Assembly (NCBI RefSeq): GCF_002019645.1 | Contig: NZ_KV917374.1 | Location: forward strand, 2,988,696 to 3,052,695 | Direction: 5' to 3' | DNA: 64,000 bases | From: Litchfieldia alkalitelluris | GTDB lineage: Bacteria; Bacillota; Bacilli; Bacillales; Bacillaceae_L | In this document: piece after piece, positions 6,039 through 49,413 of the stretch | Numbering within the stretch: the stretch's first letter is position 1 | Layout: every line of letters starts with the position of its first letter | The notes under the pieces: generated by a model | Databases searched by the model: none | What the model was told of the DNA's origin: nothing | The model's input: the letters and a program-made list of their open reading frames with translations, nothing else | Translations under genes and position numbers: made by a program

Positions 6039-6088
6039 TGTGACGTTCTTCACAGTGGATGGTCCATTAGTCATATACAATTAGATTT
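6039..6088 (+). promoter_or_regulatory. Fnr-dependent class II promoter of the nitrate-reductase-like operon
   Basis: TGTGACGTTCTTCACA at 6039-6054 matches the Bacillus Fnr box TGTGA-N6-TCACA perfectly. A -10 element TACAAT lies at 6076-6081, giving a start point near 6088. That places the box centre at about -41.5, the standard activating position. There is no good -35 hexamer, as expected for an activator-dependent promoter. The leader to the GTG start is about 60 bases. Confidence 0.8.
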
Positions 6089-6147
6089 AATTACAAGCAC
6101 TAATGATTTAAAAGGATGCTTTCAATTTATGACTGGGGTGACAATAT

Positions 6148-7302
6148 GTGAAAACGTTTGAACGTTCTTTCTATTCTAAGACAAGTATGCATGTATTTAT
6201 CGTAACGTTAATCTTATTTCTTTCAATGTGGCTAAGTACGGACATGTTTACAGACATTGATATGGCTTTAATGGGTTATATCATTTCGTCTTTTATTTTC
6301 GCAATTGGGTTAACGGTTAGAATAAGTTCATTTCTTATAAGACCCGCAACTGCCCAAATAGTTAAAAGAAGCTTTACTAATATGAAGAAGCAAAAAAGGG
6401 TTAAGAGAAATGTTAAATCAATTTTAATAACACTCGTTGAAAACATTATTTTACAAAAATTCATTTTCAAAAGAGGTATTTATAGAGGGGTTCAACATTT
6501 TTTAATTGCTTGGGGATGTATTGGGTCATTTGCTATTACGTTCGGATTAACCTTTGGATGGTTACGATTTGATCTCATTGACCCAGAAACTTATCAAATA
6601 GTTGCGTTTAATATCCCAACTATGAAAATGGCTGCACATGGACTATTCGCGGAGTTAGTTTATAACGGTTTAAATATTACCGCATTGATGGTATTGATTG
6701 GTGTAAGTATGGCTCTTGCTAGAAGGTTGGTTAATAAGGATGTCAGAGTGACACAAAGAGTTGAGTTCGATTTACTGCCGCTATATATATTACTTGCTGT
6801 TACAGTATCTGGGCTAGTATTAACCGTTTCATACCATTTTCTAGGTGGCTGGATGCATCACTACCTAACACTGGTTCATCAAGTAACTGTAGTAATTATG
6901 TTAATCTATTTTCCTTATGGAAAACTATTTCACCTTCCAATTAGACCACTGGCAACAGCAGTACCAATGAACTACCAAGAGACACTAAAAGTTGATACAA
7001 GAGAATGTAAAAAGTGCGGTAGTCCTTATAGTAGTGATGATCAAATTGCAGATGTTAAACAGATTTTAAATGTTCAAAGCTTTGATTTAAAGCTTGATGA
7101 TGGTTCCTATTTAGCTGATTATTGCCTTCCATGTAGAAGAAGAATCAGAGTAATGAAACAATTGAATATTGAATCTGTACCAGGAAATCCATATGCACCT
7201 ATTAATACATTAAACGATATTCATATGTCTGGATTTGGGAAAAGAAGGTCAGATGAATTTTATAATTTACCGGAAAAAGAAAAAAATGAAATCGTGAAGT
7301 AA
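6148..7302 (+). CDS. membrane cytochrome b-like subunit of the nitrate-reductase-like operon
   Basis: The protein has 384 residues with about five or six membrane segments between residues 14 and 262, of the NarI/DsrM-like quinol-oxidising type. Candidate haem ligands are His117 (GVQHFLIAWG), His164 (AAHGLF), His230 (SYHFLGG), His244 (LVHQVT) and His262 (KLFHLP). The soluble C-terminus adds two Cys pairs, CKKC at 287-290 and CLPC at 326-329, which could hold zinc or iron. The start is GTG after GGGGTGA; the overlapping ATG runs straight into a stop. First gene of a five-gene operon, 15 bases before the molybdoenzyme. Family assignment is by pattern only. Confidence 0.72.
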   Translation: MKTFERSFYSKTSMHVFIVTLILFLSMWLSTDMFTDIDMALMGYIISSFIFAIGLTVRISSFLIRPATAQIVKRSFTNMKKQKRVKRNVKSILITLVENIILQKFIFKRGIYRGVQHFLIAWGCIGSFAITFGLTFGWLRFDLIDPETYQIVAFNIPTMKMAAHGLFAELVYNGLNITALMVLIGVSMALARRLVNKDVRVTQRVEFDLLPLYILLAVTVSGLVLTVSYHFLGGWMHHYLTLVHQVTVVIMLIYFPYGKLFHLPIRPLATAVPMNYQETLKVDTRECKKCGSPYSSDDQIADVKQILNVQSFDLKLDDGSYLADYCLPCRRRIRVMKQLNIESVPGNPYAPINTLNDIHMSGFGKRRSDEFYNLPEKEKNEIVK

Positions 7303-7317
7303 CTGGGGGAGAAATAG

Positions 7318-9441
7318 ATGAGTCAGTATTTAGTAAAAGAAGGCGTTAAAAATTTAGTTAAACCCGGAGAAAAGCTGGTTACTACCCATTGTTGTTACTG
7401 TGGAATGCAGTGTGGGATGCATATTCGCGTAAATGAAAAATCAGGGAAAGTTGTCGGTGTTGAGCCACGTTACGACTGGCCTGTTACTAAAGGGAAAATG
7501 TGTCCAAAAGGAGTAACTGCTTATCAAACGGTCGACCATAAAGAAAGAATTCTTAAGCCACTTATCAAGAAGAATGGTAAGTTTGTTGAGTCATCATGGG
7601 AAGAAGCTTTAGATGTTATTGAGTCTAATTATAAAAGGCTCCAAAAGGAATATGGCAAAGATTCACTGTCGGTTTTTGGTGGAGTTTCAATGACGAATGA
7701 AAAGTGCTATCTAGTAGGTAAATACGCGAGGGTTGCACTAGGTACTAAATATATAGACTATAATGGTAGATTCTGTATGAGTTCAGCAGCGGGTGGAGCG
7801 CTAAAAACATTAGGTATCGATAGAGGATCAACGTTACCTTGGACTGAACTTGAGCATTCAGATTGCTTTTTTATTGCAGGATCAAATACAGCTGAATGTC
7901 ATCCAACTAGTATTCAATGGTTCTGGAAAGCAAAGGACAAGGGAGCGAAATTAATTGTTGCCGATCCTAGAGAAACACCAACAGCTAGAGTGGCAGATGT
8001 TCATTTGGACCTTAAACCTGGAACAGATTCTGCCTTAGCAAATGGTATTCTTCATTTATTAATCCGTGAAGGATATGTGGATAATCAATATGTAAGTGAG
8101 CGTTGTAATAACTTTGAAGAACTTAAGGAATCGGTGAAGCATTGGACACCACAATTAACATCAGAGATTACTGGTGTGGATAAAGATAAGATTATTAAGG
8201 CAGCGCATATTTATGGAATGTCTGAAAAATCAGTTGTTATGTTTGCACGTGGTGCTGAGCAACAATCAAAAGGTGTAGATAATGTTTCACTGTATACCTC
8301 AATGGCATTGTTAAGAGGGCAAATTGGGAAATTCGCCTCAGGTGTTGCCACTTTCACCGGACAAGGGAATGGTCAAGGTGGCCGTGAACATGGGCAAAAA
8401 TCTGATTTACTTCCAGGTTATAGAAAAATTACAGATCCTGAAGCTGTTAAGTACATTTCAAGCGTTTGGGGTATCGATCCAAAAGATATGCCAGGACCTG
8501 GTGTTTCAGCATATGAAATGTTTGATGAAATCCAAAACGGGAACATTCGTGCGATGCACGTGATGTGTAGTAATCCTGCTGTGTCAGCTCCAAATGTAGA
8601 ATACATTTGGGAAGGCTTTAAAAAGCTAGATTTCATGGTTGTAAGTGATTTCTTCTTATCAGAAACAGCTGAATTTGCTGATGTTGTTCTCCCAGCAACA
8701 TCGTGGGCTGAAGATGAAGGGACAACAACAAATCTTGAGGGAAGAGTTATACGTATTCGTAAAGTATGTGAGCCACTTGGTGAGTCAAAAACCGATTGGG
8801 AAATTATGTGTGCAATTGCGAAAAGAATGGGGAAAGAACCTCATTTCTCTTATAAAAATGCAAGAGAAATATTTGAAGAGTTCCGGATAGCAACTAAAGG
8901 TGGAAAAGCCGATTATTATGGAATAACGTGGGAACGTATTGATAAAGAGGATGGGGTGTTCTGGCCATGTCCTTCAGAAGATCATCCAGGGACACCAACA
9001 ATGTTTAAAGAAAAATTCGGTACACCAGATGGTAAAGCAAACCTTCCGGCAGTTGCTTGGAAGGAACCTGGGGAAATTCCAAGTAGTAAGTACCCACACA
9101 TTTTAACAACAGGAAGAGTGGTTTTCCACTATTTATCAGGTAGTCAAACTAGACGTGTTGACTTTTTAATGGAGCAATGTCCAGTGCCATATACGGAAAT
9201 GCACCCGGAGCTTGCAAGTCAATATAATCTATCTAACGGAGATAAAGTAAAACTTATCACTCCAAGATCAGAAATGATTTTAGATGTAAAACTAACCAAA
9301 GCAATTAGAAAAGATACAGTCTTTGTACCGTACCATTGGGGGAAAGAGCTTTCTGTAAATAAGCTGACAAACCCAAGCCTAGATCCAACGTCTAGGATGC
9401 CAGAATTTAAAGTGTGCGCTGTGAAAATAGAGAAGGTTTAA
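7318..9441 (+). CDS. molybdopterin oxidoreductase, NapA/NasA-type nitrate reductase catalytic subunit
   Basis: Probable nitrate reductase with bis-MGD molybdenum and one [4Fe-4S] cluster. The cluster motif is C25-x2-C28-x3-C32 with the fourth Cys at 62 (KGKMCPKG). The probable Mo ligand is Cys153 in RFCMSSAAGG, matching the CMSSA of Nas/Nap nitrate reductases rather than the selenocysteine/cysteine site of formate dehydrogenases. The C-terminal dinucleotide-binding domain (LTTGRVVFHYLSGSQTRR, then YHWGKE) is complete. At 707 residues it has no Tat signal, so it is cytoplasmic. Context (Fnr box, quinol-type cytochrome b, ferredoxin, Rieske) suggests respiration rather than assimilation. Selenate or another oxyanion remains possible. 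Confidence 0.85.
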   Translation: MSQYLVKEGVKNLVKPGEKLVTTHCCYCGMQCGMHIRVNEKSGKVVGVEPRYDWPVTKGKMCPKGVTAYQTVDHKERILKPLIKKNGKFVESSWEEALDVIESNYKRLQKEYGKDSLSVFGGVSMTNEKCYLVGKYARVALGTKYIDYNGRFCMSSAAGGALKTLGIDRGSTLPWTELEHSDCFFIAGSNTAECHPTSIQWFWKAKDKGAKLIVADPRETPTARVADVHLDLKPGTDSALANGILHLLIREGYVDNQYVSERCNNFEELKESVKHWTPQLTSEITGVDKDKIIKAAHIYGMSEKSVVMFARGAEQQSKGVDNVSLYTSMALLRGQIGKFASGVATFTGQGNGQGGREHGQKSDLLPGYRKITDPEAVKYISSVWGIDPKDMPGPGVSAYEMFDEIQNGNIRAMHVMCSNPAVSAPNVEYIWEGFKKLDFMVVSDFFLSETAEFADVVLPATSWAEDEGTTTNLEGRVIRIRKVCEPLGESKTDWEIMCAIAKRMGKEPHFSYKNAREIFEEFRIATKGGKADYYGITWERIDKEDGVFWPCPSEDHPGTPTMFKEKFGTPDGKANLPAVAWKEPGEIPSSKYPHILTTGRVVFHYLSGSQTRRVDFLMEQCPVPYTEMHPELASQYNLSNGDKVKLITPRSEMILDVKLTKAIRKDTVFVPYHWGKELSVNKLTNPSLDPTSRMPEFKVCAVKIEKV

Positions 9442-9466
9442 GCTTTAGAAAAGGAGGCGAAACAAC

Positions 9467-10009
9467 ATGAATAAAATAATGTATTTAGAATTTGAGAGAT
9501 GCATTGGTTGTCGTTCTTGTCAGGCAGCGTGCCGCGAGTGTGGAGACCATGATGCAAAGGAACGAAACTATGTTGAATATGTTGATTTTATGGAAAGTAG
9601 ACAAACGTTTCCGATGCTGTGTATGCAGTGCAAAGACCCAGCATGTGCGAGAGTTTGTCCAGCAAATGCAATCCAAATAACAGAAGAGGGTGTTGTTCTT
9701 TCAGCAATGGAAGAAAAATGTATTGGATGCCGTAACTGTACGTTTGGCTGTCCATTTGGAATACCAAAATTCGATTTCGAAGAAAATAAAATGTATAAAT
9801 GTGATATGTGTTATGACCGTTCTAAACATGATATTGCACCAATGTGTGCTTCTGTTTGTCCAAGTGATGCAATTAGGTTTATAGACTTTGACGAGATGCA
9901 GGCATTAAGAAGAAAGAGAACTCAAATGAACCTTGTTGAAGGAAAAAAACCACAAGAAGGTAATAAGTGGCAATATGTTCCAGAGTTCTTTGGTGTATAC
10001 TCTGACTAA
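9467..10009 (+). CDS. four-cluster [4Fe-4S] electron-transfer subunit
   Basis: A 180-residue ferredoxin of the DmsB/NrfC/NapG type that passes electrons to the molybdoenzyme. Four Cys groups fit four [4Fe-4S] clusters: CIGCRSCQAACREC, CMQCKDPACARVCP, CIGCRNCTFGCPFG and CDMCYDRSKHDIAPMCASVCP. No signal peptide, so it is cytoplasmic like its partner. The ribosome site is AAAAGGAGGCG. It lies 25 bases after the catalytic gene and 46 before the Rieske gene. It probably bridges the membrane subunit to the molybdenum enzyme. Confidence 0.9.
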   Translation: MNKIMYLEFERCIGCRSCQAACRECGDHDAKERNYVEYVDFMESRQTFPMLCMQCKDPACARVCPANAIQITEEGVVLSAMEEKCIGCRNCTFGCPFGIPKFDFEENKMYKCDMCYDRSKHDIAPMCASVCPSDAIRFIDFDEMQALRRKRTQMNLVEGKKPQEGNKWQYVPEFFGVYSD

Positions 10010-10055
10010 TTAAAAACCCACTCATGCAAGAAGTACAAAAGAAGGGGGCAGAGTG

Positions 10056-10589
10056 ATGAGTGAGAAAAATAAACTAAGCCGTAATCAGAAAGATACTAGT
10101 GATGATATGGTTAATTTAGTTGATAATATTGATCGACAGAACGATTTGAAATTTAATCGCCGTTCATTTTTAAAAACTGCTGTAGCAGCGTCTGTAACTC
10201 TCGGTGTCGCAACATTACCATTTTCTATCAAAGCGATGTTAAATGATGGAGATGAGGAACCCGTAAAAGTGAAGATCGGCAAACTCTCTGAAGTAGGTAA
10301 GGGAGAATCTATTAATTTTAACTATCCTACTGATCAAGAACCAGCTATCCTTGTTCACACAAAAGAGGGAAACTTAAAGGCGTATAATAATAAGTGTACC
10401 CACCTTCAGTGTCCAGTTTTTTATGAAAAGGAACAAGATGTTCTACTCTGTCCATGTCACCGAGGGTTCTTTGATGTAAATAATGGACACCCTGTGGCAG
10501 GACCACCACAGAGAGAACTACCATTAATTGAGCTCGAGCTCTTAGATGATGTCATCTATGCGGTTGGAAGGAAAATTCGCCATGGCTAA
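10056..10589 (+). CDS. Rieske [2Fe-2S] protein with Tat-type N-terminus
   Basis: The C-terminal domain has both cluster loops of a bc-type Rieske protein: CTHLQC (Cys114, His116, Cys119) and CPCHRG (Cys132, Cys134, His135). Cys119 and Cys134 are positioned for the stabilising disulfide. The usual Ser of CPCHGS is replaced by Arg. The N-terminus has a 34-residue hydrophilic leader, then NRRSFLKTAV, a twin-arginine motif, and one hydrophobic helix. The domain is therefore expected on the outer face, tethered by that helix. GTG at 10053 and ATG at 10056 are both possible; the GGGGG ribosome site favours the ATG. Its coding end overlaps the next gene by 8 bases. Confidence 0.88.
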   Translation: MSEKNKLSRNQKDTSDDMVNLVDNIDRQNDLKFNRRSFLKTAVAASVTLGVATLPFSIKAMLNDGDEEPVKVKIGKLSEVGKGESINFNYPTDQEPAILVHTKEGNLKAYNNKCTHLQCPVFYEKEQDVLLCPCHRGFFDVNNGHPVAGPPQRELPLIELELLDDVIYAVGRKIRHG

Positions 10590-10782
10590 AAAAATGTGTT
10601 GGGTTATTATTTTAGTCACTCTAGCTGTTAATGTAGTGATGTTACATTTTACAATTGAAGCATATTTCGGTTTAGAGTATAATCATGTATTTGGGAATAC
10701 GATTTTCGCTCTGATATCTTCAATCATAGCACTAATTAGTTATTTTTATTGGCGAAGATTAGAATACAGTAATGAAAAGTAG
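10582..10782 (+). CDS. small membrane protein, two transmembrane helices
   Basis: The 66-residue product begins MAKKMCWVIILVTLAVNVVM. It has two hydrophobic helices (about 5-20 and 33-52) and a charged C-terminus. Its ATG lies inside the last codons of the Rieske gene, after a GGAAGGA ribosome site, so translation is probably coupled. The arrangement suggests a minor membrane subunit or assembly factor of the same complex. I know no family for it. A strong terminator follows directly and ends the operon. Confidence 0.7.
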   Translation: MAKKMCWVIILVTLAVNVVMLHFTIEAYFGLEYNHVFGNTIFALISSIIALISYFYWRRLEYSNEK

Positions 10783-11773: not shown

Positions 11774-12319
11774 TTACCATCTATCTGTAGGTACAATCGT
11801 AAGCTGACTACCTGTAAACGTTCTTTCACCTAATGTTGTAATAAGAGTACATCTATTAAAAGTGATTAAACTAGAAGAACAAACCTCAAACGTATAATCT
11901 ATAAGAAGACCAGAACCAAGCTCTTGTTCTTGATTATTTTTAACGATAACTTTATTGCCCTCTAGCGTTTTAAATTTTGCTTCGTTTATAAAAAATACCC
12001 ATGAACTCCAATTAGTATAAATATATGCATGAGTACCATCTTGTAAATAGCCTAATAAGCTATTTTTATCATCAATATAAGCCTCATTAATAGAGAGAAT
12101 ACGATTAATTACTTTATTTATGATTGAAAATTCGTCAAACGATAAATTACCTGAAAATGAAACGAAAACCTCATTATGTTTTATTGTTAGAGTTGAAATT
12201 TCTTTGTTTTTATAGAGAATAATTATTTTGTTTCCATGATGTTTCAGGTTGTCTTTATCGAGAGATAGTAAGCTAAGAGGCTCGATTTCTTTTTCGTATT
12301 TTATTAACGCTGATAACAT
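11774..12319 (-). CDS. hypothetical protein, 181 residues
   Basis: A complete frame from ATG 12319 after an AAAAGGGGTG ribosome site. No signal peptide, membrane segment or metal motif is visible. Sequence is mixed alpha/beta with many short hydrophobic strands (KIIILYKNKEISTLTI, HAYIYTNWSSWVFFINEAKF). I do not recognise a family. The gene is isolated between two copies of the dispersed repeat. Codon use looks like the neighbours, so recent transfer is not indicated. Confidence 0.65.
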   Translation of the reverse strand: MLSALIKYEKEIEPLSLLSLDKDNLKHHGNKIIILYKNKEISTLTIKHNEVFVSFSGNLSFDEFSIINKVINRILSINEAYIDDKNSLLGYLQDGTHAYIYTNWSSWVFFINEAKFKTLEGNKVIVKNNQEQELGSGLLIDYTFEVCSSSLITFNRCTLITTLGERTFTGSQLTIVPTDRW

Positions 12320-12454
12320 TCAAACACCCCTTTTTTAATAATTTTATCAATAAATTAGAGTGGAGATAGTGAGTTATCTCACATTAAAGAATTCTTATAC
12401 ATTAATTATAGAATCTTTGCCGATGATAAGGTTAGACAATCACGCTAAAAAGAT

Positions 12455-30740: not shown

Positions 30741-31829
30741 ATGGAATTCAATCATACAATTTTTGAAAAAGCTAAAGAATTTATTATAATTTGTTATCAT
30801 GAACTTAATTTGATAGATCTCATTGAAACAAGACTAGATGAAATTTACAAAGAGATAAAAGTTAGTGGGAGCTATCATCATACATTTGAAGAGCTTGAAT
30901 ACGGTGCGAAAATGGCTTGGCGGAATAGCAACAGGTGTATTGGTCGTCTTTTTTGGAATTCACTTACAGTGTTTGATCAACGAGAGGCTAATAGTGAAAA
31001 AGAGATTTTTAACGCGTTATCTAGTCATCTTAAATTCGCGACGAATAATGGAAAAATACGCCCTACAATTACAATTTTTCGTCAGGATTTAGATGAAGTA
31101 AATCGAATACATATTTGGAATCATCAATTAGTAAGGTATGCAGGGTATGAAACGGAGTTCGGGGTTTTAGGAGACCCTGCCTCAATTCAATTAACTAAAA
31201 AATGTGAAGAACTTGGATGGAAAGGGAAGGGTACTCCATTTGATATTCTTCCAGTCATTATAGAAATCGATAGTAATGGTCCAAAGTTATTTGAACATTC
31301 ATTAGAAAATGTACTCGAGGTAGAACTTGAGCATCCTGATTATACATGGTTTAAAGAGCTACAACTAAAATGGTATGCCGTACCGTTTATTTCAGACATG
31401 GTGTTATCAATTGGTGGGATAAAATATAGTGCTGCACCATTCAATGGATGGTACATGGGAACTGAAATAGGAGCTAGGAATCTTGCAGATGTAAACAGAT
31501 ATAATCTTTTACCGAGAGTAGCAGAACGATTAGGGTTAAATCTCCAATCGAATTCTTCATTATGGAAAGATCGTGCACTAGTTGAATTGAATTTAGCGGT
31601 ATTACATTCTTATAAGTTGTCTGGTGTTAGTATTGTTGATCATCATACTGCCGCACAACAGTTTGCTCATTTTGAAAACAATGAAAAAAATGCTGGTCGG
31701 AAACTAACAGGCGATTGGTCTTGGTTAATTCCACCAATCTCACCAGCAACCACACATATTTTTTACAATAATTATGATAACACAAGAGTAAACCCAAACT
31801 TTTATCACAAAAAAACCAGTCCTTTTTAG
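30741..31829 (+). CDS. nos: nitric oxide synthase oxygenase
   Basis: Bacterial NOS makes NO and citrulline from arginine using a haem-thiolate site and external reductases. The haem Cys66 lies in WRNSNRCIGRLFW; the substrate region IKYSAAPFNGWYMGTEIGAR and PFISDMVLSIGG are standard. 362 residues, oxygenase domain only, as in B. subtilis YflM. Start ATG 30741 after AAGGGAGGTACCAG. Single gene. NO could feed back on the Fe-S regulators and the nitrate pathway encoded elsewhere in this window. Confidence 0.95.
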   Translation: MEFNHTIFEKAKEFIIICYHELNLIDLIETRLDEIYKEIKVSGSYHHTFEELEYGAKMAWRNSNRCIGRLFWNSLTVFDQREANSEKEIFNALSSHLKFATNNGKIRPTITIFRQDLDEVNRIHIWNHQLVRYAGYETEFGVLGDPASIQLTKKCEELGWKGKGTPFDILPVIIEIDSNGPKLFEHSLENVLEVELEHPDYTWFKELQLKWYAVPFISDMVLSIGGIKYSAAPFNGWYMGTEIGARNLADVNRYNLLPRVAERLGLNLQSNSSLWKDRALVELNLAVLHSYKLSGVSIVDHHTAAQQFAHFENNEKNAGRKLTGDWSWLIPPISPATTHIFYNNYDNTRVNPNFYHKKTSPF

Positions 31830-36356: not shown

Positions 36357-37667
36357 TTAAGCAGCTTTTTTATTCGACTTAAACTTTGTTACTTCAGCTT
36401 TTTTACTTTGATAGTAATACCAGTTTAAAATAAACGAGATCACATAGAATGCGATGAAGACGTACAATGCATTAATCGGACTACCAGTGTTTTCAGCTGC
36501 CCAACCTAAAAGTTTTGGTATTAAAAAAGATCCGTATGCAGCGAATGCGGCCGTAAATCCAAGAACAGGTGCTGCTTCTTTTGCTGGAAAAATAAACGGT
36601 ATCATTTGGAAAGTAGAACCAGAACCAATACCTGCAGCAATGAATAAAATCAAGAATGATGTTAAGAAACCTGCAAAGTTTTGTTGAAGGGTGAAATAAA
36701 TAACTGAAATAGCACCTAATCCCATGACAACAAACACGTAAGCAGTTATTCTTTCACCACCAAATTTATCGGAGATCCAGCCTCCAACCGGGCGTGCTGC
36801 TGCTGCTAAAAATGCACCTAAAAATGCAAGTGGTACATATTGAGGAAACAACGTTTTTAGTAAAAGTGGAAAAGCAGCTGAGTATCCGATAAAGGAACCA
36901 AACGTTGCAACATATAACCAAGTCATAATCCAAGTGTGTTTTCTTTTCACAATAACAAATTGTTCAGATACAGATTGTTTGTTATTTGGAAGATTATCCA
37001 TTCCGAAATAAGCAATGACTGTCATAATAAGAATAGGGATAACCCAGATAAACGCTGCATTTTGTAACCAAATTTGACTTCCATCAGGTAATACCTGACC
37101 ACTTCCACCCATAAAGGCAAAAGTGCTAGTTGTAATAATTAGTGGTGTAACAAATTGCACAACGGAAACACCCATATTACCCAAACCACCATTAATTCCA
37201 AGCCCAGTACCTTTTTCTTTCTTTGGAAAGAAAAAACTAATATTTGCTGATGATGAACAGAAATTCCCCCCACCAAGCCCACATAGAGCAGCAAGTAGTA
37301 ACATCACTGAATATGGAGTGTCAGGATTTTGAACTGCAATCCCAATACCCATTGCTGGTAGTGCAAGAATACCAGTAGCAAAAACGGTCCAGTTTCTTCC
37401 ACCGAATTTACCTACCCCAAAAGTATAAACAAAACGTAATGTTGCACCAACAAGACCTGGAATGGCTGCTAGTGTGAATAATTCTTCAGATGTAAATTGA
37501 AAACCAATATCGTTTAAGCGAACTGCAACAACGGACCATATTTGCCAAACAATGAATGCAAGCATCAAAGAAGGGACAGAAATCCACAGGTTTCTTCGAG
37601 CATGCTTTCGACCTTCCTTTTCCCAAAAATGAGGATCTTCCGGATGCCAATGTGTAATACGTGCCAT
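36357..37667 (-). CDS. narK: nitrate/nitrite transporter, NarK (NNP) family
   Basis: 436 residues, twelve membrane helices, MFS. NNP-family signatures are the two glycine-rich nitrate motifs GLGGGNFCSSSANISFFFP and GLGINGGLGNMGVSVVQF in the first half, and GIGSGSTFQMIPFIFP with AAFAAYGSFLIPKL in the second. Expected to import nitrate and/or export nitrite. A Fnr box lies 88 bases before the start, matching the one ahead of the nitrate-reductase-like operon 30 kb away. The long N-terminus with HWHPEDPHFWEKEG is typical of Bacillus NarK-like proteins. Confidence 0.9.
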   Translation of the reverse strand: MARITHWHPEDPHFWEKEGRKHARRNLWISVPSLMLAFIVWQIWSVVAVRLNDIGFQFTSEELFTLAAIPGLVGATLRFVYTFGVGKFGGRNWTVFATGILALPAMGIGIAVQNPDTPYSVMLLLAALCGLGGGNFCSSSANISFFFPKKEKGTGLGINGGLGNMGVSVVQFVTPLIITTSTFAFMGGSGQVLPDGSQIWLQNAAFIWVIPILIMTVIAYFGMDNLPNNKQSVSEQFVIVKRKHTWIMTWLYVATFGSFIGYSAAFPLLLKTLFPQYVPLAFLGAFLAAAARPVGGWISDKFGGERITAYVFVVMGLGAISVIYFTLQQNFAGFLTSFLILFIAAGIGSGSTFQMIPFIFPAKEAAPVLGFTAAFAAYGSFLIPKLLGWAAENTGSPINALYVFIAFYVISFILNWYYYQSKKAEVTKFKSNKKAA

Positions 37668-37754: not shown

Positions 37755-37770
37755 TGTGACCTTAATCACA
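37755..37770 (-). promoter_or_regulatory. Fnr box upstream of narK
   Basis: TGTGACCTTAATCACA is a perfect TGTGA-N6-TCACA site. On the minus strand a weak -10 (TATTAG, about 37726-37731) lies 34 bases downstream of its centre, close to class II spacing. Confidence 0.75.
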
Positions 37771-42558: not shown

Positions 42559-42611
42559 TGAGTTAAAAGAGTTGTTAGAAAACATGTATGTTATGAAGGG
42601 ATTGTTATTTT

Positions 42612-43952
42612 ATGAAGATTTTGATTAAAAATGCTGAAATAATTACTATGAATGGTGAAAATAACATCATTTATGGTGATTTGTTAATTGAAAATGACAA
42701 AATCAAGGAAATAGCAACCCAAATATCAGATTTTAATGTAGATAAAATCATTGACGCTAAGGGTAGAACTGTCATTCCAGGATTTGTTCATACACATATA
42801 CATTTATGTCAGACCGTTTTCAGAGGGCAGGCGGATGACCTTGAATTGATGGATTGGTTGGCTAAAAAAATATGGCCACTTGAGGCTTCCCATGATGAGG
42901 AATCAATCTATTATTCAGCGATGCTTGGTATTGGAGAACTAATACAAAGTGGGACTACTTCCATTATTGATATGGAAACAGTACATCATACAGAGTCAGC
43001 ATTCAGAGCTATTGCTGAGAGTGGAATAAGAGCAATTTCTGGTAAAGTAATGATGGACCATGGAAGTGGAGTTCCAGAGAGATTATTAGAAACAACAAAG
43101 AATTCAATAGATGAGAGTGTGACACTTCTCGAAAAATGGAACAATTTTGATGACGGAAGAATCAAATATGCGTTTTCACCAAGGTTTGTGGTCTCATGTA
43201 CTGAAAATCTTTTAACGCAAATTCGGGATTTGTCTTCTCATTATGATGTTAAAGTACACACACATGCATCTGAAAATCTAGGTGAGATTGAAATTGTTGA
43301 GAAAGAACGCGGTATGAGAAATATCGTTTACCTAGATCATATCGGGCTCGCTAATCCTCGCCTCATTTTAGCTCACTGTGTGTGGCTAGATGAAGAGGAA
43401 AAAAGAATACTTAAAGATAGAGGCGTTAAAGTTAGTCATTGTCCAGGTTCGAACTTAAAGCTAGCTTCTGGTATTGCCGAAATTCCAGATTTATTAAAAA
43501 GGGAAATTTCCCTAAGTATTGGAGCTGATGGTGCACCATGTAATAATAATTTGGATATGTTCCATGAGATGAGACTTGCTGCGATCATCCAAAAACCTTT
43601 TCATGGTCCAACCGTAATGAACGCTGAACAAGTATTAAGAATGGCGACAATGGGTGGAGCAAAAGCAATGGGACTTGAAGAAGAAATTGGAAGTCTTGAA
43701 GTAGGTAAAAAAGCAGATATCGTTATTTTAAATTTAAATGACTTCCATGTTTATCCAAATGTTGATGTTGATCCTATTTCAAGGGTTGTATATTCTGCAA
43801 CGAGGGCTGATGTTGAAACAACAATTATAAATGGGAAAATTGTCATGGAAAATAGGATTATGAAAACAATGAACAAAGACTTTGTTTTAAATGAATCGAA
43901 CAAGACTATTAAACGTCTATTAAAACGGGCCACAACTTTGGTTAAAGCTTAA
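42612..43952 (+). CDS. amidohydrolase, deoxyadenosine/purine deaminase-like
   Basis: 446 residues. Metal motifs of the TrzN/SsnA/5'-deoxyadenosine deaminase group are present: HTHIHLCQTVFRGQADDLEL, HTHASENLGE, LAHCVWLDEEE, and GADGAPCNNNLDMFHEMR. Such enzymes deaminate aminopurines or their nucleosides. As first gene of the xanthine dehydrogenase operon (41 bases before pucA) a guanine- or oxoguanine-type deaminase that supplies xanthine is attractive, but the classical guanine deaminase signature is absent. The weak ribosome site GAAGGGATTGTTATTTT precedes it. Confidence 0.8.
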   Translation: MKILIKNAEIITMNGENNIIYGDLLIENDKIKEIATQISDFNVDKIIDAKGRTVIPGFVHTHIHLCQTVFRGQADDLELMDWLAKKIWPLEASHDEESIYYSAMLGIGELIQSGTTSIIDMETVHHTESAFRAIAESGIRAISGKVMMDHGSGVPERLLETTKNSIDESVTLLEKWNNFDDGRIKYAFSPRFVVSCTENLLTQIRDLSSHYDVKVHTHASENLGEIEIVEKERGMRNIVYLDHIGLANPRLILAHCVWLDEEEKRILKDRGVKVSHCPGSNLKLASGIAEIPDLLKREISLSIGADGAPCNNNLDMFHEMRLAAIIQKPFHGPTVMNAEQVLRMATMGGAKAMGLEEEIGSLEVGKKADIVILNLNDFHVYPNVDVDPISRVVYSATRADVETTIINGKIVMENRIMKTMNKDFVLNESNKTIKRLLKRATTLVKA

Positions 43953-43993
43953 TAACAAAGGTGTAAAGAGTGTAAATCAAGAGGAGGTGCCGT

Positions 43994-44998
43994 ATGTACG
44001 ATCATTACTCTATTTTAAAAGAAGCATGTTCAAGCACTGCAGGATTTCTAGCTACTATTATTAAGGTAGAAGGTTCTTCATATCAAAAAGAAGGAACTTC
44101 AATGGTGATTAACCATGATGGAAAAAGAGTAGGGCTGTTAAGTGGAGGATGCTTGGAAACGGATTTAGTTGAAAGAATAAAACAATTGGATACTAAAACA
44201 ACCTCCTTCTTTACAATCTATGACATGAGGTCTGAGGATGATTTAACATGGGGGCAAGGAGTAGGGTGTAATGGTTCAATTCATGTATTAGTAGAGAAGC
44301 TAACTGCAGAATTAAAAAACTTATTTAATAACTTGCTAGCCAAAATTGATCAAGGTAGGGTAGTTAAATTAGTTCGCGAGATATCACTAGATGCTTCTTA
44401 TGTGAATTATCATTTTTCTATAGAAAATGAGATGGATAATGTTGATAATCCCACACCAAAAACAGGAATCAATTTGAGCATTTCTTTAGACTCAAAGGCA
44501 ACCTCCTATGATTACACACAAATCTTTCAATCCAGACCTAACTTATACGTGTTTGGCGCCGGACCCGACTCCATTCCACTTGTTGAGCTTGCTGCGAGTG
44601 CTGGATTTAATGTGACTGTTTGTGATTGGCGGGAGGGTTATTGTAATAAAGAAAATTTCCCTAAAGCACATAGGCTTATGGTTGGTAATCTTTATGAACA
44701 GGTAAATAAACTAAATCCTAAGCCTTCAGACTTTGTTGTTATAATGACTCATCATTTTCAAAAGGATTATGAGTTGACCACCTATTTACTGCAAAAAAAA
44801 TTAAAGTACTTGGGGATTTTGGGATCATTAGATCGCTCAACTAGACTACTTAAAGGATTTACTGTACCTGAATGGGTTTCTTTCCCTGTCGGATTACAGA
44901 TAGGAGCCAAGGGACCGTACGAAATTGCTATATCTATACTTGCAGAAATCATTAAGTATAAAAATATAAACGAAGTGAATCAATTGGTGAGTAATTAA
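43994..44998 (+). CDS. pucA: XdhC-family xanthine dehydrogenase maturation factor PucA
   Basis: 334 residues. XdhC/CoxI N-terminal domain (GFLATIIKVEGSSYQKEGTSM, LLSGGCLETDLVER, WGQGVGCNGSIHVLVE) and a C-terminal Rossmann domain (LYVFGAGPDSIPLVELAASAG). XdhC proteins bind the molybdenum cofactor, help its sulfuration and insert it into xanthine dehydrogenase. Ribosome site AAGAGGAGGTGCCGT. Its stop overlaps the start of pucB (TAATG). Confidence 0.92.
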   Translation: MYDHYSILKEACSSTAGFLATIIKVEGSSYQKEGTSMVINHDGKRVGLLSGGCLETDLVERIKQLDTKTTSFFTIYDMRSEDDLTWGQGVGCNGSIHVLVEKLTAELKNLFNNLLAKIDQGRVVKLVREISLDASYVNYHFSIENEMDNVDNPTPKTGINLSISLDSKATSYDYTQIFQSRPNLYVFGAGPDSIPLVELAASAGFNVTVCDWREGYCNKENFPKAHRLMVGNLYEQVNKLNPKPSDFVVIMTHHFQKDYELTTYLLQKKLKYLGILGSLDRSTRLLKGFTVPEWVSFPVGLQIGAKGPYEIAISILAEIIKYKNINEVNQLVSN

Positions 44999-45666
44999 TG
45001 AACGATAAAATTGTCGGTATATATCTTGCTGCTGGAAAGAGTACTCGAATGGGAACAGATAAGAAATCCCTTGAATTAGGGAATTCTTCTTTGGGTAGTT
45101 TCGCACTCCACACAATTCTTAGTTCTCCTATTTTTAAAACATTTGTTGTAACACAAAAGGATGATAAGCTGTCATGGCTACACCCTTCTTTTTTTTATCA
45201 TGAGAACTGTAAGAAGTGGGAACCTGTATATACTCATGAATTTCATCATGGGCAATCTTATTCGTTAAAAGCCGGGTTAAGTGCTGCTCAAAAAGTAGAA
45301 CCCAAGGCTTATATGATATTCCTTGCAGACCAACCTTTTATCTCTCAGCAAATCATTCAAAAGATAGTTGATGAATACAATCAGATCACAAAAGATAAAG
45401 AGGCGACTAGTGTTGATTTTATAGGCTCTTATAGTGATGGATCTGTTAAGCCACCGATTCTTTTTTTAGATCATGTTTTACCAGATCTTCTAACACTAAA
45501 GGGTGATTTAGGAGCACGTAAATTAATTGCGAATGGGACTCTAAAAGGGAAATTAATATCATTTGATGAATCAGTCATGTTTTTAGATGTTGACACTGAA
45601 GAGGATTATTTATCAGCAAAAAGAGTGAAACCAAACATCTTCATACCAAGAATCAAGCAGTATTAA
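44998..45666 (+). CDS. pucB: molybdenum cofactor cytidylyltransferase-like protein PucB
   Basis: 222 residues of the MobA/MocA nucleotidyltransferase family: N-terminal GIYLAAGKSTRMGTDKKSLEL is the nucleotide-binding loop, and MIFLADQPFIS is the metal-binding aspartate motif. Expected to attach a nucleotide to molybdopterin for xanthine dehydrogenase. The ATG overlaps the pucA stop by one base, so the two are translationally coupled. Confidence 0.9.
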   Translation: MNDKIVGIYLAAGKSTRMGTDKKSLELGNSSLGSFALHTILSSPIFKTFVVTQKDDKLSWLHPSFFYHENCKKWEPVYTHEFHHGQSYSLKAGLSAAQKVEPKAYMIFLADQPFISQQIIQKIVDEYNQITKDKEATSVDFIGSYSDGSVKPPILFLDHVLPDLLTLKGDLGARKLIANGTLKGKLISFDESVMFLDVDTEEDYLSAKRVKPNIFIPRIKQY

Positions 45667-45685
45667 GAAAGGGGGAATAAAGTGG

Positions 45686-46582
45686 ATGGAAACAGAAAAC
45701 ACAGTCGTCACATTACCTGAAGTGTTAATACCTAATAATATAAAAGAGTTATGGGCATTAAAACAAATCAAAAGTTCTTCGGTGATAATAGCTGGTGGTA
45801 CCCTTATTCAAGTGCAATGGGAAACCGGTGAGTCAGTGCCCTCTTCATTAATAAGTATTGAATCTATCAAAGACCTAACTGGAATTTCTGTGATCAATAA
45901 TGAAGAAGGTAAATTTATTAAGATAGGTACATTAACAAGGTTAGCAGAATGTATAACTGATATGACACTTCTTATTCATGCCCCAATATTAGCTGAGGCA
46001 TGTAAGAATATTGCAGCTCCGGCAGTTCGTAATCGAGGAACGGTTGGTGGGAATATTTGCAGTGGGTTGGGAGATGCAATTCCTGTCTTGTTATGTTTAG
46101 ATTCTTTAGTAGAATATTATGACGGAAACGGATATACAACGACCTCACTAAATGCTTGGTTAAGTAATAAATTGCAGGCAAAGGGTTGTATATTAACGGC
46201 TATTCTTATACCCATTCAGGAAAAAATTTTAAATAACACTTACTTCTATGAAAAAGTTGGAAGAAGGGAAGCTTTCAATGTTGCATTAATTAGTCTTTCA
46301 ATTATTTGTTATAAAGATAGTAAATCTAAAGCAAATGAGATAAGGATTTGCATTGGTGGTGGTAACCATAATCCGCAGAGACTAGAGAAAACTGAGAACT
46401 TCCTTAAAAATACTGATTTTGAAAAAGACCTTAATTTAGCAATTTTGTATGAATTGATTTATAACGAAATAGATTCATATACAGATGCTTTCTCAACAGC
46501 CAATTATCGCAAACTTGTCGGAACTAATCTTATATTATCATATATAACAGAACAATTTTGTTCTAAAGGAAGGGTGATTTAA
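45686..46582 (+). CDS. pucC: xanthine dehydrogenase FAD-binding subunit PucC
   Basis: 298 residues. FAD contacts are IIAGGTLIQVQWE and RNRGTVGGNICSGLGDAIPVLL, both standard for CoxM/XdhB-type subunits. Acts with PucD (molybdenum) and PucE (2Fe-2S) as the three-subunit xanthine dehydrogenase that makes urate. Start ATG 45686; GGGGGAATAAAGTGG precedes. The next gene starts three bases after its stop. Confidence 0.92.
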   Translation: METENTVVTLPEVLIPNNIKELWALKQIKSSSVIIAGGTLIQVQWETGESVPSSLISIESIKDLTGISVINNEEGKFIKIGTLTRLAECITDMTLLIHAPILAEACKNIAAPAVRNRGTVGGNICSGLGDAIPVLLCLDSLVEYYDGNGYTTTSLNAWLSNKLQAKGCILTAILIPIQEKILNNTYFYEKVGRREAFNVALISLSIICYKDSKSKANEIRICIGGGNHNPQRLEKTENFLKNTDFEKDLNLAILYELIYNEIDSYTDAFSTANYRKLVGTNLILSYITEQFCSKGRVI

Positions 46583-46585
46583 GAA

Positions 46586-48883
46586 ATGGAGTTAAATCGT
46601 AAACACTCTAAACGCTGGTTTGTTCGACCAGATGGAGCAAAGAAGGTTACAGGTCAACTTAAGTATTTAACAGACTTAACTTTTCCGAATATGTTGTATG
46701 GCAGAATTCTAAGAAGCGGAATTCCTCATGCGAAAATAATGTCTATAAATACTGAAAAAGCACTAAGGTTATGCGGTGTAAGAGCTGTACTCACATATAA
46801 GGATATCCCAGGATTAAACGGATTCGGGCTGATTTTTCCGGATCAACCTGTATTTTGTAAAGATATCGTTCGCTTTGAAGGTGATGCCATAGCAGCAGTA
46901 GCTGCAGACACGGATGAAATCGCAGCTGCTGCTATAAAATTAATAGATGTGGAATATCAACCACTTACAGTAATGGACTCCCCTGAAGTTGCTCTCTCAA
47001 ATGAATCTATTAGTCTACATCCTTCTGGAAATGTACTTCATCGTGCAGAGTATAAAACGATTGAAGACGATGAGATTAATCAAGTATTCTTTTCCTGCCA
47101 CAACGTAATTGAAGAAACGTATCATACCCCGAGACAGATGCATGCTTATATGGAAACTGAAGGTGGAGTAGTTGTTCCAGAAAAAGATGGCAGTATCACC
47201 GTATACGCAGCTACACAGCATGGTTTTAAGGATAGGATGCAGCTTTCTAGAATACTTAATATGGACGAGAAGAACATTAGGGTAGTCTCTAGTCCTATTG
47301 GTGGATCATTTGGTGGAAAGGACGAGTTAAATGTCCAACCTTATGCTTCTTTACTTGCTCTGACTACAAATAGACCTGTGAAAATTCACCAAAAGAGAAA
47401 TGATTCGGTGATTGCAGGTCTCAAACGACATCCAATGAAAATCACTATGAAAACAGGGGTAGATGAAAAAGGGAAGATCCTCGCTCACGTTGTTAGAATT
47501 GTTGCAGATACAGGTGCTTATGCCACGTTGGGGCCTGCCGTGCTTGATTTTGCAGTTGAACACGCAACAGGACCATATATTATCCCTAATGTAAATGTAG
47601 AAGGTGTTTCAGTTTATACTAATAACGGAATTTCCGGTGAATTTAGAGGATTTGGTGGTAATCAAATCACATTTGCATTGGAATCTCAATTAGACCGATT
47701 AGCCGAAAGCTTAAACATATCTCAATATGATATTAGGTTACTAAATTTAAGAAAAACAAACGATTTAGGGCCTTTAGGACAAAGAATTGTCCCAACAAAC
47801 GGTGCTTTTGATGTGCTTGAACAAATTAATCATTCTTCAATCCTAAATAAACCTTTTTCACAAACTGAAAATCGGAAATTAAAAGGTTCTGGACTGGCCA
47901 TTACCATGCATGGTGGCGGTTTAGGATATGGACGACCGGATCCATCTGGTGGAAGATTAGCTTTAACTAAAGAAGGAAAGATTGAGATTGCTTTTGGTTT
48001 TGAGGAAGTCGGGCAAGGGCTAATAGGTTCAATTGAGATTATGATGATTGAGGAATTAGGCTGTAGTAAGGATGATATTTCGATCGTGATTGGTGATACG
48101 GGACTAGTTCCACCCTCTGGTTCTTCCACGGCATCAAGATCTACTAATATGGCTTGGCAAGGAATCAGAACGATGAAGAATCCTTGGTTAAGAGAATTGC
48201 TCAGCAATGCATCAATCGTGACTGAAGAAAAGGTAGAGAATTTAAAAATGGGACCAGGAGGAATTTGGTCTATAGATGATGATGTTACAGTTCCAATTAT
48301 TACTTATAAAAAATTAGCCCAATCGTTGATAAATCTTCCTACAATCACTAGTCAATACGATTTCCCGACAACACCTGATCCAATTGTGGGAGGTCATTAT
48401 TTATATAGTTTTGGAGCTATTGCTGTTGAAGTAGAAGTAGATAAATTAACCGGAAAAGTAAAAGTGACAGATGTAGAACATACGATCGCTGCCGGCCCTG
48501 TTGTTAATCCGATGGGCTTTTTGGGACAAATTGAAGGTGGAGGAATCATGGCCTTGGGCTTCACAATCATGGAAGACTCATTAATGGACAGTGGCAAATA
48601 TGTAACAAGAAATTTCGATTCTTACTTAATACCCACTATTAAAGACATCCCATCACACACAAAAGTAAATGCGATCGAAACATTAGTTGAGGGTGATCAT
48701 TTCGGTCCAAGAGGAGTAGGAGAAATTGGAACAGTTGCAGTTGCTCCAGCCATTATTGCAGCTATTCATGATGCGACTGGTTATTGGGTAAATAAACTAC
48801 CCATTTCACCCGAGGAAATACTTAATGCTTTAACAAAACAAAATAAAGGTTTATTTAATCAACAGTCGAAGGAGTTGATATAA
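46586..48883 (+). CDS. pucD: xanthine dehydrogenase molybdenum-binding subunit PucD
   Basis: 765 residues. CoxL/XdhA features: SSPIGGSFGGKDELNVQP, the MCD-cofactor loop GEFRGFGGNQITFALES, AFGFEEVGQGLIGSI, and the catalytic glutamate in GPRGVGEIGTVAVAPAI. It is the substrate-oxidising subunit of xanthine dehydrogenase. The start ATG follows AAAGGAAGGGTGATTTAAGAA. The stop (TAA) directly abuts the ATG of pucE with no gap. Confidence 0.94.
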   Translation: MELNRKHSKRWFVRPDGAKKVTGQLKYLTDLTFPNMLYGRILRSGIPHAKIMSINTEKALRLCGVRAVLTYKDIPGLNGFGLIFPDQPVFCKDIVRFEGDAIAAVAADTDEIAAAAIKLIDVEYQPLTVMDSPEVALSNESISLHPSGNVLHRAEYKTIEDDEINQVFFSCHNVIEETYHTPRQMHAYMETEGGVVVPEKDGSITVYAATQHGFKDRMQLSRILNMDEKNIRVVSSPIGGSFGGKDELNVQPYASLLALTTNRPVKIHQKRNDSVIAGLKRHPMKITMKTGVDEKGKILAHVVRIVADTGAYATLGPAVLDFAVEHATGPYIIPNVNVEGVSVYTNNGISGEFRGFGGNQITFALESQLDRLAESLNISQYDIRLLNLRKTNDLGPLGQRIVPTNGAFDVLEQINHSSILNKPFSQTENRKLKGSGLAITMHGGGLGYGRPDPSGGRLALTKEGKIEIAFGFEEVGQGLIGSIEIMMIEELGCSKDDISIVIGDTGLVPPSGSSTASRSTNMAWQGIRTMKNPWLRELLSNASIVTEEKVENLKMGPGGIWSIDDDVTVPIITYKKLAQSLINLPTITSQYDFPTTPDPIVGGHYLYSFGAIAVEVEVDKLTGKVKVTDVEHTIAAGPVVNPMGFLGQIEGGGIMALGFTIMEDSLMDSGKYVTRNFDSYLIPTIKDIPSHTKVNAIETLVEGDHFGPRGVGEIGTVAVAPAIIAAIHDATGYWVNKLPISPEEILNALTKQNKGLFNQQSKELI

Positions 48884-49393
48884 ATGTCAATTGAGAACCT
48901 CTCTTCACAAACAAAGAATACGACCACAATCTTGCTAAATTGTTTTATTAATGACAATGAAATAGTATTAGAGGTTCCAGCAACATACCGTTTAGTGGAT
49001 ATTCTTCGAAAAAAACTTGATTTGACAGGAACGAAAATTTCTTGTGAAGTCGGACGGTGTGGAGCTTGTTCAGTTTTAATGAATGGAAACTTAGTTAATT
49101 CTTGTCTATTAATGGCCTACCAAATTCAAGGGTCTAGTATTAATACTATTGAATATATGTCAAAGGAGTCCATGAATCCTATCCAACAAGCTTTTCTAGA
49201 AGAAGGTGCACTCCAATGTGGATACTGTACTCCAGGAATGGTTATGGCTTTAAAGTCATTGCTATCTACTAATCCGTCACCTAGTTTAGAAGAAATAGAA
49301 ATTGCTTTATCCGGAAACCTCTGCCGTTGTACAGGGTATAACGGAATTATTAGAGCGGTTAGCCGTTATATTGAAAACTCACAATCTAGCTAA
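48884..49393 (+). CDS. pucE: xanthine dehydrogenase iron-sulfur subunit PucE
   Basis: 169 residues carrying two [2Fe-2S] clusters: plant-ferredoxin type CEVGRCGACSV plus a later Cys, and the helical type CGYCTPGMVM ... GNLCRCTGYNGI. It transfers electrons from the molybdenum subunit towards FAD. A 14-residue polar N-terminal extension precedes the ferredoxin fold. The ribosome site lies in the end of pucD (AAGGAGTTGATATAA). Confidence 0.94.
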   Translation: MSIENLSSQTKNTTTILLNCFINDNEIVLEVPATYRLVDILRKKLDLTGTKISCEVGRCGACSVLMNGNLVNSCLLMAYQIQGSSINTIEYMSKESMNPIQQAFLEEGALQCGYCTPGMVMALKSLLSTNPSPSLEEIEIALSGNLCRCTGYNGIIRAVSRYIENSQSS

Positions 49394-49413
49394 AGAATTA
49401 AAGGTGGATAATC

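Follow-up and report, generated by a model that had tools for sequence, protein, structure and literature searches.

What is encoded by an operon that places a nitrate-reductase-like molybdenum (Mo) enzyme beside a cytochrome b, a ferredoxin and a Rieske protein? We addressed this question for five genes in a 64,000-nucleotide stretch of the Litchfieldia alkalitelluris genome (contig NZ_KV917374.1, positions 2,988,696 to 3,052,695), which is called the window here and in which coordinates are counted unless another locus is named. Judged from its genes and their context, the operon probably specifies a nitrate reductase that is anchored in the membrane, oxidises menaquinol, serves anaerobic respiration and is controlled by FNR or Nre. 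Most likely this conserved operon of soil Bacilli and Deinococcus plasmids would let cells respire nitrate without the usual Nar enzyme, and an assimilatory-looking Mo enzyme would, again most likely, be wired to the membrane via a Rieske protein and a cytochrome b of unusual type.

Organization and conservation of the operon

The five genes occupy positions 6148 to 10782 on the + strand, where an earlier note made from the sequence of this stretch had placed them. The first gene (6148–7302) starts with GTG and encodes a cytochrome b of 384 amino acids with six hydrophobic segments, as judged by hydropathy, and a C-terminal CxxC...CxxC domain. It is followed by genes for a NasC-like Mo enzyme of the bis-molybdopterin guanine dinucleotide (bis-MGD) type, which has 707 amino acids and no twin-arginine (RR) export motif (7318–9441), for a ferredoxin-like subunit of 180 amino acids with 17 cysteines and room for four [4Fe-4S] clusters (9467–10009), and for a Rieske [2Fe-2S] protein of 178 amino acids with a twin-arginine N-terminus (10053–10589). 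The last gene (10582–10782) encodes a membrane protein of 66 amino acids with two hydrophobic segments (hydropathy). Its start is more probably the ATG at 10582, which lies within the last bases of the Rieske gene, than 10546.

Using the cytochrome b as a query against 299 genomes of the window's order, we found it at 74 places in 68 genomes. The surroundings of these places (the window included), together with Mesobacillus zeae, gave 75 loci that were sorted by best query into class A (55 loci), class B (14) and class C (6). The cytochrome b gene adjoins the Mo enzyme gene in all 75 loci, and the ferredoxin, the Rieske protein and the two-helix protein are each present in 74, the exception (L121) being a contig end. 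All 74 complete loci have the five genes in one order and on one strand. The clustering is therefore greater than expected by chance, given the constant adjacency of the first pair, the nearly constant full set and the single strand. Median spacings between adjacent genes in the complete loci are –4, 14, 21 and –11 bases, measured on the longest possible reading frames. The earlier note had described the last gene product as a coupled two-helix protein.

The operon also occurs on plasmids of Deinococcus. Four plasmid records from this genus contain the cytochrome b, and the two that we opened both carry the whole set, in the order cytochrome b, Mo enzyme, 4Fe-4S protein, Rieske protein and small protein, followed by a NarK-type transporter. 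On one of these plasmids the small protein is annotated as DUF6755 and is the counterpart of the two-helix protein. A neighbourhood survey had been suggested as a check on the gene order, and the order proved to be conserved in the 75 loci and on the two plasmids. Identity to the window is 60–79% for cytochrome b in class A, 35–38% in class B, 35–37% in class C and 31–34% in Deinococcus; the corresponding values for the Mo enzyme are 75–91%, 62–64%, 55–56% and 47–48%, and the ferredoxin of class A is 89–99% identical. In a sample of the phylum, in which scoring was limited to five candidates per genome, 2 of 398 genomes were positive, both of the window's own order.

The catalytic subunit

The Mo enzyme scores 913.1 bits against the NasC model NF047855 (cut-off 1100), compared with 1330.4 bits for the true NasC of the same genome. 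Scores to the NapA models (306–308 bits against cut-offs of 904–931) and to the NarG model TIGR01580 (82.3 bits against 1084) are far below their cut-offs. In 60 related genomes the NasC model gave seven matches above its cut-off, at 1227–1330 bits, and a middle band of 24 matches at 867–946 bits; 19 of the latter are at surveyed operon loci and five (in G690–G694) fall outside them. A lowest band consists of five matches with an in-frame TGA (509–520 bits). A match at 697 bits is the split Mo enzyme gene of G033, which lies in two reading frames at locus L134 with the remainder of the operon apparently whole. This gene may be a decaying copy or may reflect a sequencing error.

A phylogenetic tree had 37 rows, 21 of them from the operon, Deinococcus included, and the operon rows fell together on one side of a branch with support of 88/91. 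The seven NasC rows (100/100) join two assimilatory enzymes of Mycobacterium and Deinococcus plasmids (98/94), and NapA, Paracoccus NasA and the formate dehydrogenases lie outside. The phylogeny called for by the earlier note thus makes the catalytic subunit a neighbour of NasC without including it there, and separates it from these three other enzyme types.

At the Mo site, Cys153 is found in 75 and Met154 in 76 of 77 sequences, the remainder being gaps, and Thr347 and Arg356 are present in all 77. The Cys-Met and Gly-Arg-Glu pattern is like that of NapA and NasA, and we regard the predicted active site as nitrate-reductase-like. Export of the enzyme is not indicated because the N-terminal 45 residues lack an RRx[FL] motif in all 77 sequences. 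These results fit the previous description of a NasA/NapA-type enzyme without an export signal.

The operon enzyme shares with NasC of Gram-positives (NF047855) the overall enzyme, the Cys-Met Mo site, the TGQGNGQGGREHG motif and a cytoplasmic location. It differs in its score, which lies in the middle band and not in that of true NasC, in its partners, which are a cytochrome b, a ferredoxin, a Rieske protein and a two-helix protein instead of a NasB-type flavoprotein or NirB/NirBD, and in its context, which is FNR or Nre and not an assimilatory cluster. We rejected identity with plain NasC, Nar and Nap because score, tree and partners did not agree with it, and the statement that the gene set is neither Nar, Nap nor NasBC still holds.

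FNR boxes and nitrate-related neighbours

An FNR-type box, TGTGACGTTCTTCACA, lies upstream of the operon at 6039–6054. It is a perfect TGTGA-N6-TCACA palindrome, and its first base is the left edge of the region delimited in the earlier note. In 345-base windows upstream of the class A operons, the box is perfect in 43 of 55 loci and has one mismatch in 12. By comparison, 1500 shuffled 345-base regions had no perfect box and nine with one mismatch. Upstream of the internal operon genes, a box with at most one mismatch was found for none of 76 Mo enzyme genes, none of 74 Rieske genes, none of 74 two-helix genes and 4 of 74 ferredoxin genes (one mismatch each). The window's genome has 21 perfect FNR boxes compared with 5 for a reversed control, and 5 of the 21 precede the operon, NarK, YwiC and a second NirBD (two boxes). 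Among the other 16, at least four are in reading frames, two precede adhE-like genes and three precede DoxX-like genes (names assigned by eye). The same genome encodes an FNR with a C-terminal cysteine motif, NCEECPAVFC, which we take to be like that of Bacillus subtilis FNR.

Neighbours were counted within about 7 kilobases (kb) of the operon, using phmmer thresholds of our own choosing. In class B the neighbours include NreB (13 of 14 loci), NreC (11 of 14) and NreA (10 of 14; one representative gave 105.4 bits against a cut-off of 175). NarK is near the operon in 12 of 14 class B and 4 of 6 class C loci; of the representatives checked with the NarK model TIGR00886, one was above the cut-off and two were below. 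The same five genes are tied to nitrate respiration by two independent regulatory routes, through FNR in class A and through NreABC in class B.

Electron-transfer subunits

The earlier note had called the cytochrome b a NarI/DsrM-like membrane protein. Its closest profile is QmoC, a weak match (36.4 bits against a cut-off of 300), and no Pfam match was found. The only invariant histidines in 77 sequences are H117, H244 and H262, and the invariant cysteines C287, C290, C326 and C329 (77/77) form the CxxC...CxxC domain, which weakly resembles the end of formate hydrogenlyase (FHL) subunit 6 (E 0.4). H244 and H262 are 18 residues apart and align with RLH...LIH of Escherichia coli NarI, although the match is weak (E 0.73). 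If the NarI heme ligands are H56, H66, H187 and H205, as we take them to be, H117 would correspond to H56 and residue 127 to the H66 position. Residue 127 is Ser in 69 of the 77 sequences and Ala in the other 8. Apparently a single bis-His heme lies towards the inner face, and the outer heme lacks one ligand. An AlphaFold model of the cytochrome b from three sequences had a mean predicted local distance difference test (pLDDT) score of 40 and was not used.

The families nearest to the ferredoxin are DmsB and FdnH/FDH-beta, all below their cut-offs, together with a likeness to NarH-type proteins, and the nearest protein in the PDB is FdnH. It had been described as a 16-Cys ferredoxin. The count is corrected to 17, all invariant in 76 sequences; 16 of these cysteines fit four [4Fe-4S] clusters, and Cys25 is the extra residue. 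The Rieske protein matches PF00355 at 46.9 bits and its nearest solved chains are the Thermus Rieske proteins 3fou and 1nyk. The ligand motifs CxHxxC and CPCH are present in all 76 sequences, and so is RRxF. Because the N-terminus is of the twin-arginine translocation (Tat) type, the Rieske cluster is probably on the outer face.

Proposed function and alternatives

In the mechanism that we propose, the cytochrome b and the Rieske protein would together oxidise menaquinol at the outer face, with protons released outside. Electrons would then travel via heme b to the inner face, where they would enter the four-cluster ferredoxin and pass to the [4Fe-4S] cluster of the Mo enzyme and on to Mo-bis-MGD, where nitrate imported by NarK would be reduced to nitrite in the cytoplasm. 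Without oxygen, expression would be turned on by FNR in class A or by an NreABC-type system in class B. In the window's genome the second NirBD with its two FNR boxes would carry nitrite on to ammonium. More tentatively, and with less than even probability, the NarI-type outer heme may have been lost and the outer-face Rieske protein may have replaced it as the acceptor of menaquinol electrons; oxidation would be split or relayed in Rieske fashion, with the electrons ending on the cytoplasmic Mo enzyme, and the complex would be a fourth kind of respiratory nitrate reductase. An energy-conserving quinol:nitrate reductase had been suggested from the sequence. Its nitrate-respiring side is backed by the FNR box, NarK and NreABC; nitrate reduction itself, the menaquinol path and energy conservation, like the substrate, the quinol donor, the order of electron transfer, the topology and the energy yield of the complex, are what we infer from sequence.

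Several points weigh against the proposed respiratory nitrate reductase. No box within one mismatch precedes the operon in any of the 14 class B or 6 class C loci. Random windows of the same loci, which may include real boxes, gave 48 perfect and 50 one-mismatch boxes in 1500, and 375 shuffled 280-base cytochrome b regions gave 2 and 8. The window has four boxes with at most one mismatch compared with 2.72 expected, and 26 of 100 shuffles had as many. One of the four is within a gene and three precede the operon, NarK and the gene for a 181-amino-acid protein; it is the positions of these boxes, not their number, that matter. NarK is near only 23 of 55 class A operons, and that of the window is 26 kb away. 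The support for the operon clade is below the level that the tree program marks with a star. A single bis-His heme would leave the path across the membrane unclear. Finally, NarG is present in 11 of 68 genomes with the operon and in 45 of 231 others, which indicates independent occurrence. We had looked for a replacement of Nar by the operon, and these counts do not bear it out. The window's genome itself had no NarG match.

One alternative, which we regard as improbable, is a cytoplasmic nitrate reductase for nitrogen assimilation or electron disposal, in which the cytochrome b and Rieske protein would be only an alternative donor and no energy would be conserved. The closest catalytic relatives, NasC and the Mycobacterium and Deinococcus plasmid enzymes that sit with nirB, speak for this idea. 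However, the window's genome already has a separate assimilatory cluster, NirBD-NasC-NasB-NarK, with no FNR box inside, and the operon itself bears the marks of anaerobic respiration, namely FNR boxes (class A) or adjacent NreABC genes (class B).

It is quite improbable that the enzyme acts on formate or on another oxyanion, for example chlorate or selenate, instead of nitrate. The Mo enzyme scores 683.8 bits with the Fdh-alpha model TIGR01591, above the cut-off of 666.25, which also counts against a nitrate reductase, and formate dehydrogenases are among its nearest solved structures. When E. coli FdhF is aligned, however, its C(U)140-H141 and R333, which we take to be the catalytic Cys/Sec-His pair and Arg, correspond to C153-M154 and to T347, and formate dehydrogenase identity was rejected on these active-site residues despite the cut-off being passed. 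In addition, the selenocysteine-type formate dehydrogenases of the same genomes are those in the lowest band of NasC-model scores, well below the operon group. NarK and NreA-type sensors are a nitrate-specific context, and in the choice between nitrate and other oxyanions that the earlier note had left open, the FNR box, NarK and NreABC favour nitrate. That an ordinary NasC-type gene merely lies beside unrelated redox genes and forms no complex is scarcely credible; NasC is the best NCBIfam match of the Mo enzyme, but gene content, order and strand are the same in 74 of 75 loci with median spacings between –11 and 21 bases, and the set recurs in Deinococcus.

Relation to known systems

The nitrate reductase types named in one paper are NasBCDE, NarGHJI and NapAB (PMC2614493, available in part). 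Like NarGHJI, the proposed menaquinol-oxidising enzyme would have catalytic and four-cluster subunits at the inner face on a NarI-like cytochrome b, under FNR or NreABC control. Unlike it, the operon has a 707-amino-acid NasC-like subunit in place of NarG, no NarJ and an added Rieske protein, and one NarI heme ligand is apparently absent. The nar operon of Haloferax mediterranei also joins a nitrate reductase with a Rieske protein and a cytochrome b and comprises, in the accessible part of the report, narB (Rieske), narC (cytochrome b) and narGH (PMC2483277). There the catalytic subunit is NarG-type, Tat-exported and outside the membrane, whereas ours is NasC-like and, with no RR motif, apparently cytoplasmic; narC has 486 amino acids compared with 384 for the operon cytochrome b, which is nearest to QmoC/NarI.

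A study of two Bacillus species, as far as its available text goes, describes Nar, Nap and NasC, with nasC of Bacillus bataviensis linked to HCP and a Rieske protein (PMC3475470). The link between NasC and a Rieske protein is shared with the operon, but that nasC is proposed to be assimilatory, lies with HCP and is given no cytochrome b or ferredoxin partner in the same portion of text. Nap, including the nap cluster of Bacillus azotoformans (same source and portion), likewise has a Mo enzyme with ferredoxin-type partners. It differs in that NapA is exported and forms a separate branch, and the operon has no NapB, NapD, NapH or NapC. In the open-access literature, preprints and subscription papers excluded, we found no description of the five-gene operon.

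Bacilli that respire nitrate are usually recognised by narG or napA. One study has surveyed narGH and napA across Bacillota (PMC11388526, available in part). Because 57 of the 68 genomes with the operon cytochrome b have no narG match, surveys based on these marker genes may overlook many potential nitrate respirers. Automatic annotation also masks the system: the Deinococcus cytochrome b is named ‘MFS transporter’ and the Mo enzyme passes the cut-off of a formate dehydrogenase model. If the proposed electron path is true, a Rieske protein would be paired with a NarI/DsrM-type instead of a bc-type cytochrome, which would be a new combination.

Other genes near the operon and in the genome

The NarK/NarU-type nitrate/nitrite transporter of the window (36357–37667, – strand, 436 amino acids) scores 309.2 bits to TIGR00886 (cut-off 311.7) and 443 bits to the NarU model NF011608 (cut-off 836), and a perfect FNR box at 37755–37770 lies about 90 bases before it. 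The 181-amino-acid protein (11774–12319, – strand) is a recurrent neighbour of the operon (44 of 55 class A and 4 of 6 class C loci) and matched neither Pfam nor NCBIfam at E 1e-5; an FNR-like box with one mismatch lies 49 bases before its gene, at 12368–12383. A maturation or regulatory factor is possible. Across the loci, neighbours with an upstream box (within one mismatch) include YwiC (14 of 15), radical S-adenosylmethionine (SAM) proteins (20 of 22), Mrp (24 of 39), the 181-amino-acid protein (28 of 46), NarK (18 of 48) and FNR-like proteins (9 of 31).

Class A neighbours also include YwiC (14 of 55) and a TIGR04053 radical SAM/SPASM protein preceded by an FNR box (22 of 55; e.g. L045, 2667–3878), and one representative of each is above its model cut-off. 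In the window's genome the TIGR04053 gene lies beside fnr (L162). An Mrp/NBP35-type Fe-S carrier ATPase is a neighbour in 33 of 55 class A and 6 of 6 class C loci. In seven class A loci (L050, L104, L106, L108, L115, L120 and L122) its gene is between those for the ferredoxin and the Rieske protein, and in many others it is divergent and adjoins the cytochrome b gene; it may be a dedicated cluster carrier. A protein of about 130 amino acids without an assigned family follows the two-helix gene in all 14 loci of class B (e.g. L057, 3007–3399, – strand) but in none of classes A and C.

With the Mo enzyme as query, in a search not aimed at NapA, the window's genome returned four genes, namely that of the query, NasC and two distant relatives. 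The second NirBD of this genome lies with a siroheme-type gene behind two perfect FNR boxes (L161, 4769–9147, – strand; C1:5174771–5177131), apart from the assimilatory NirBD, and probably reduces nitrite to ammonium in a dissimilatory role. Elsewhere in the window, the gene at 30741–31829 (+ strand) appears by eye to encode a bacterial nitric oxide synthase oxygenase domain, with no NCBIfam match at E 1e-5, and the region from about 42600 to 49400 (+ strand) appears by eye to be a Mo hydroxylase cluster of the xanthine dehydrogenase type that includes a MobA-like gene (44998–45666).

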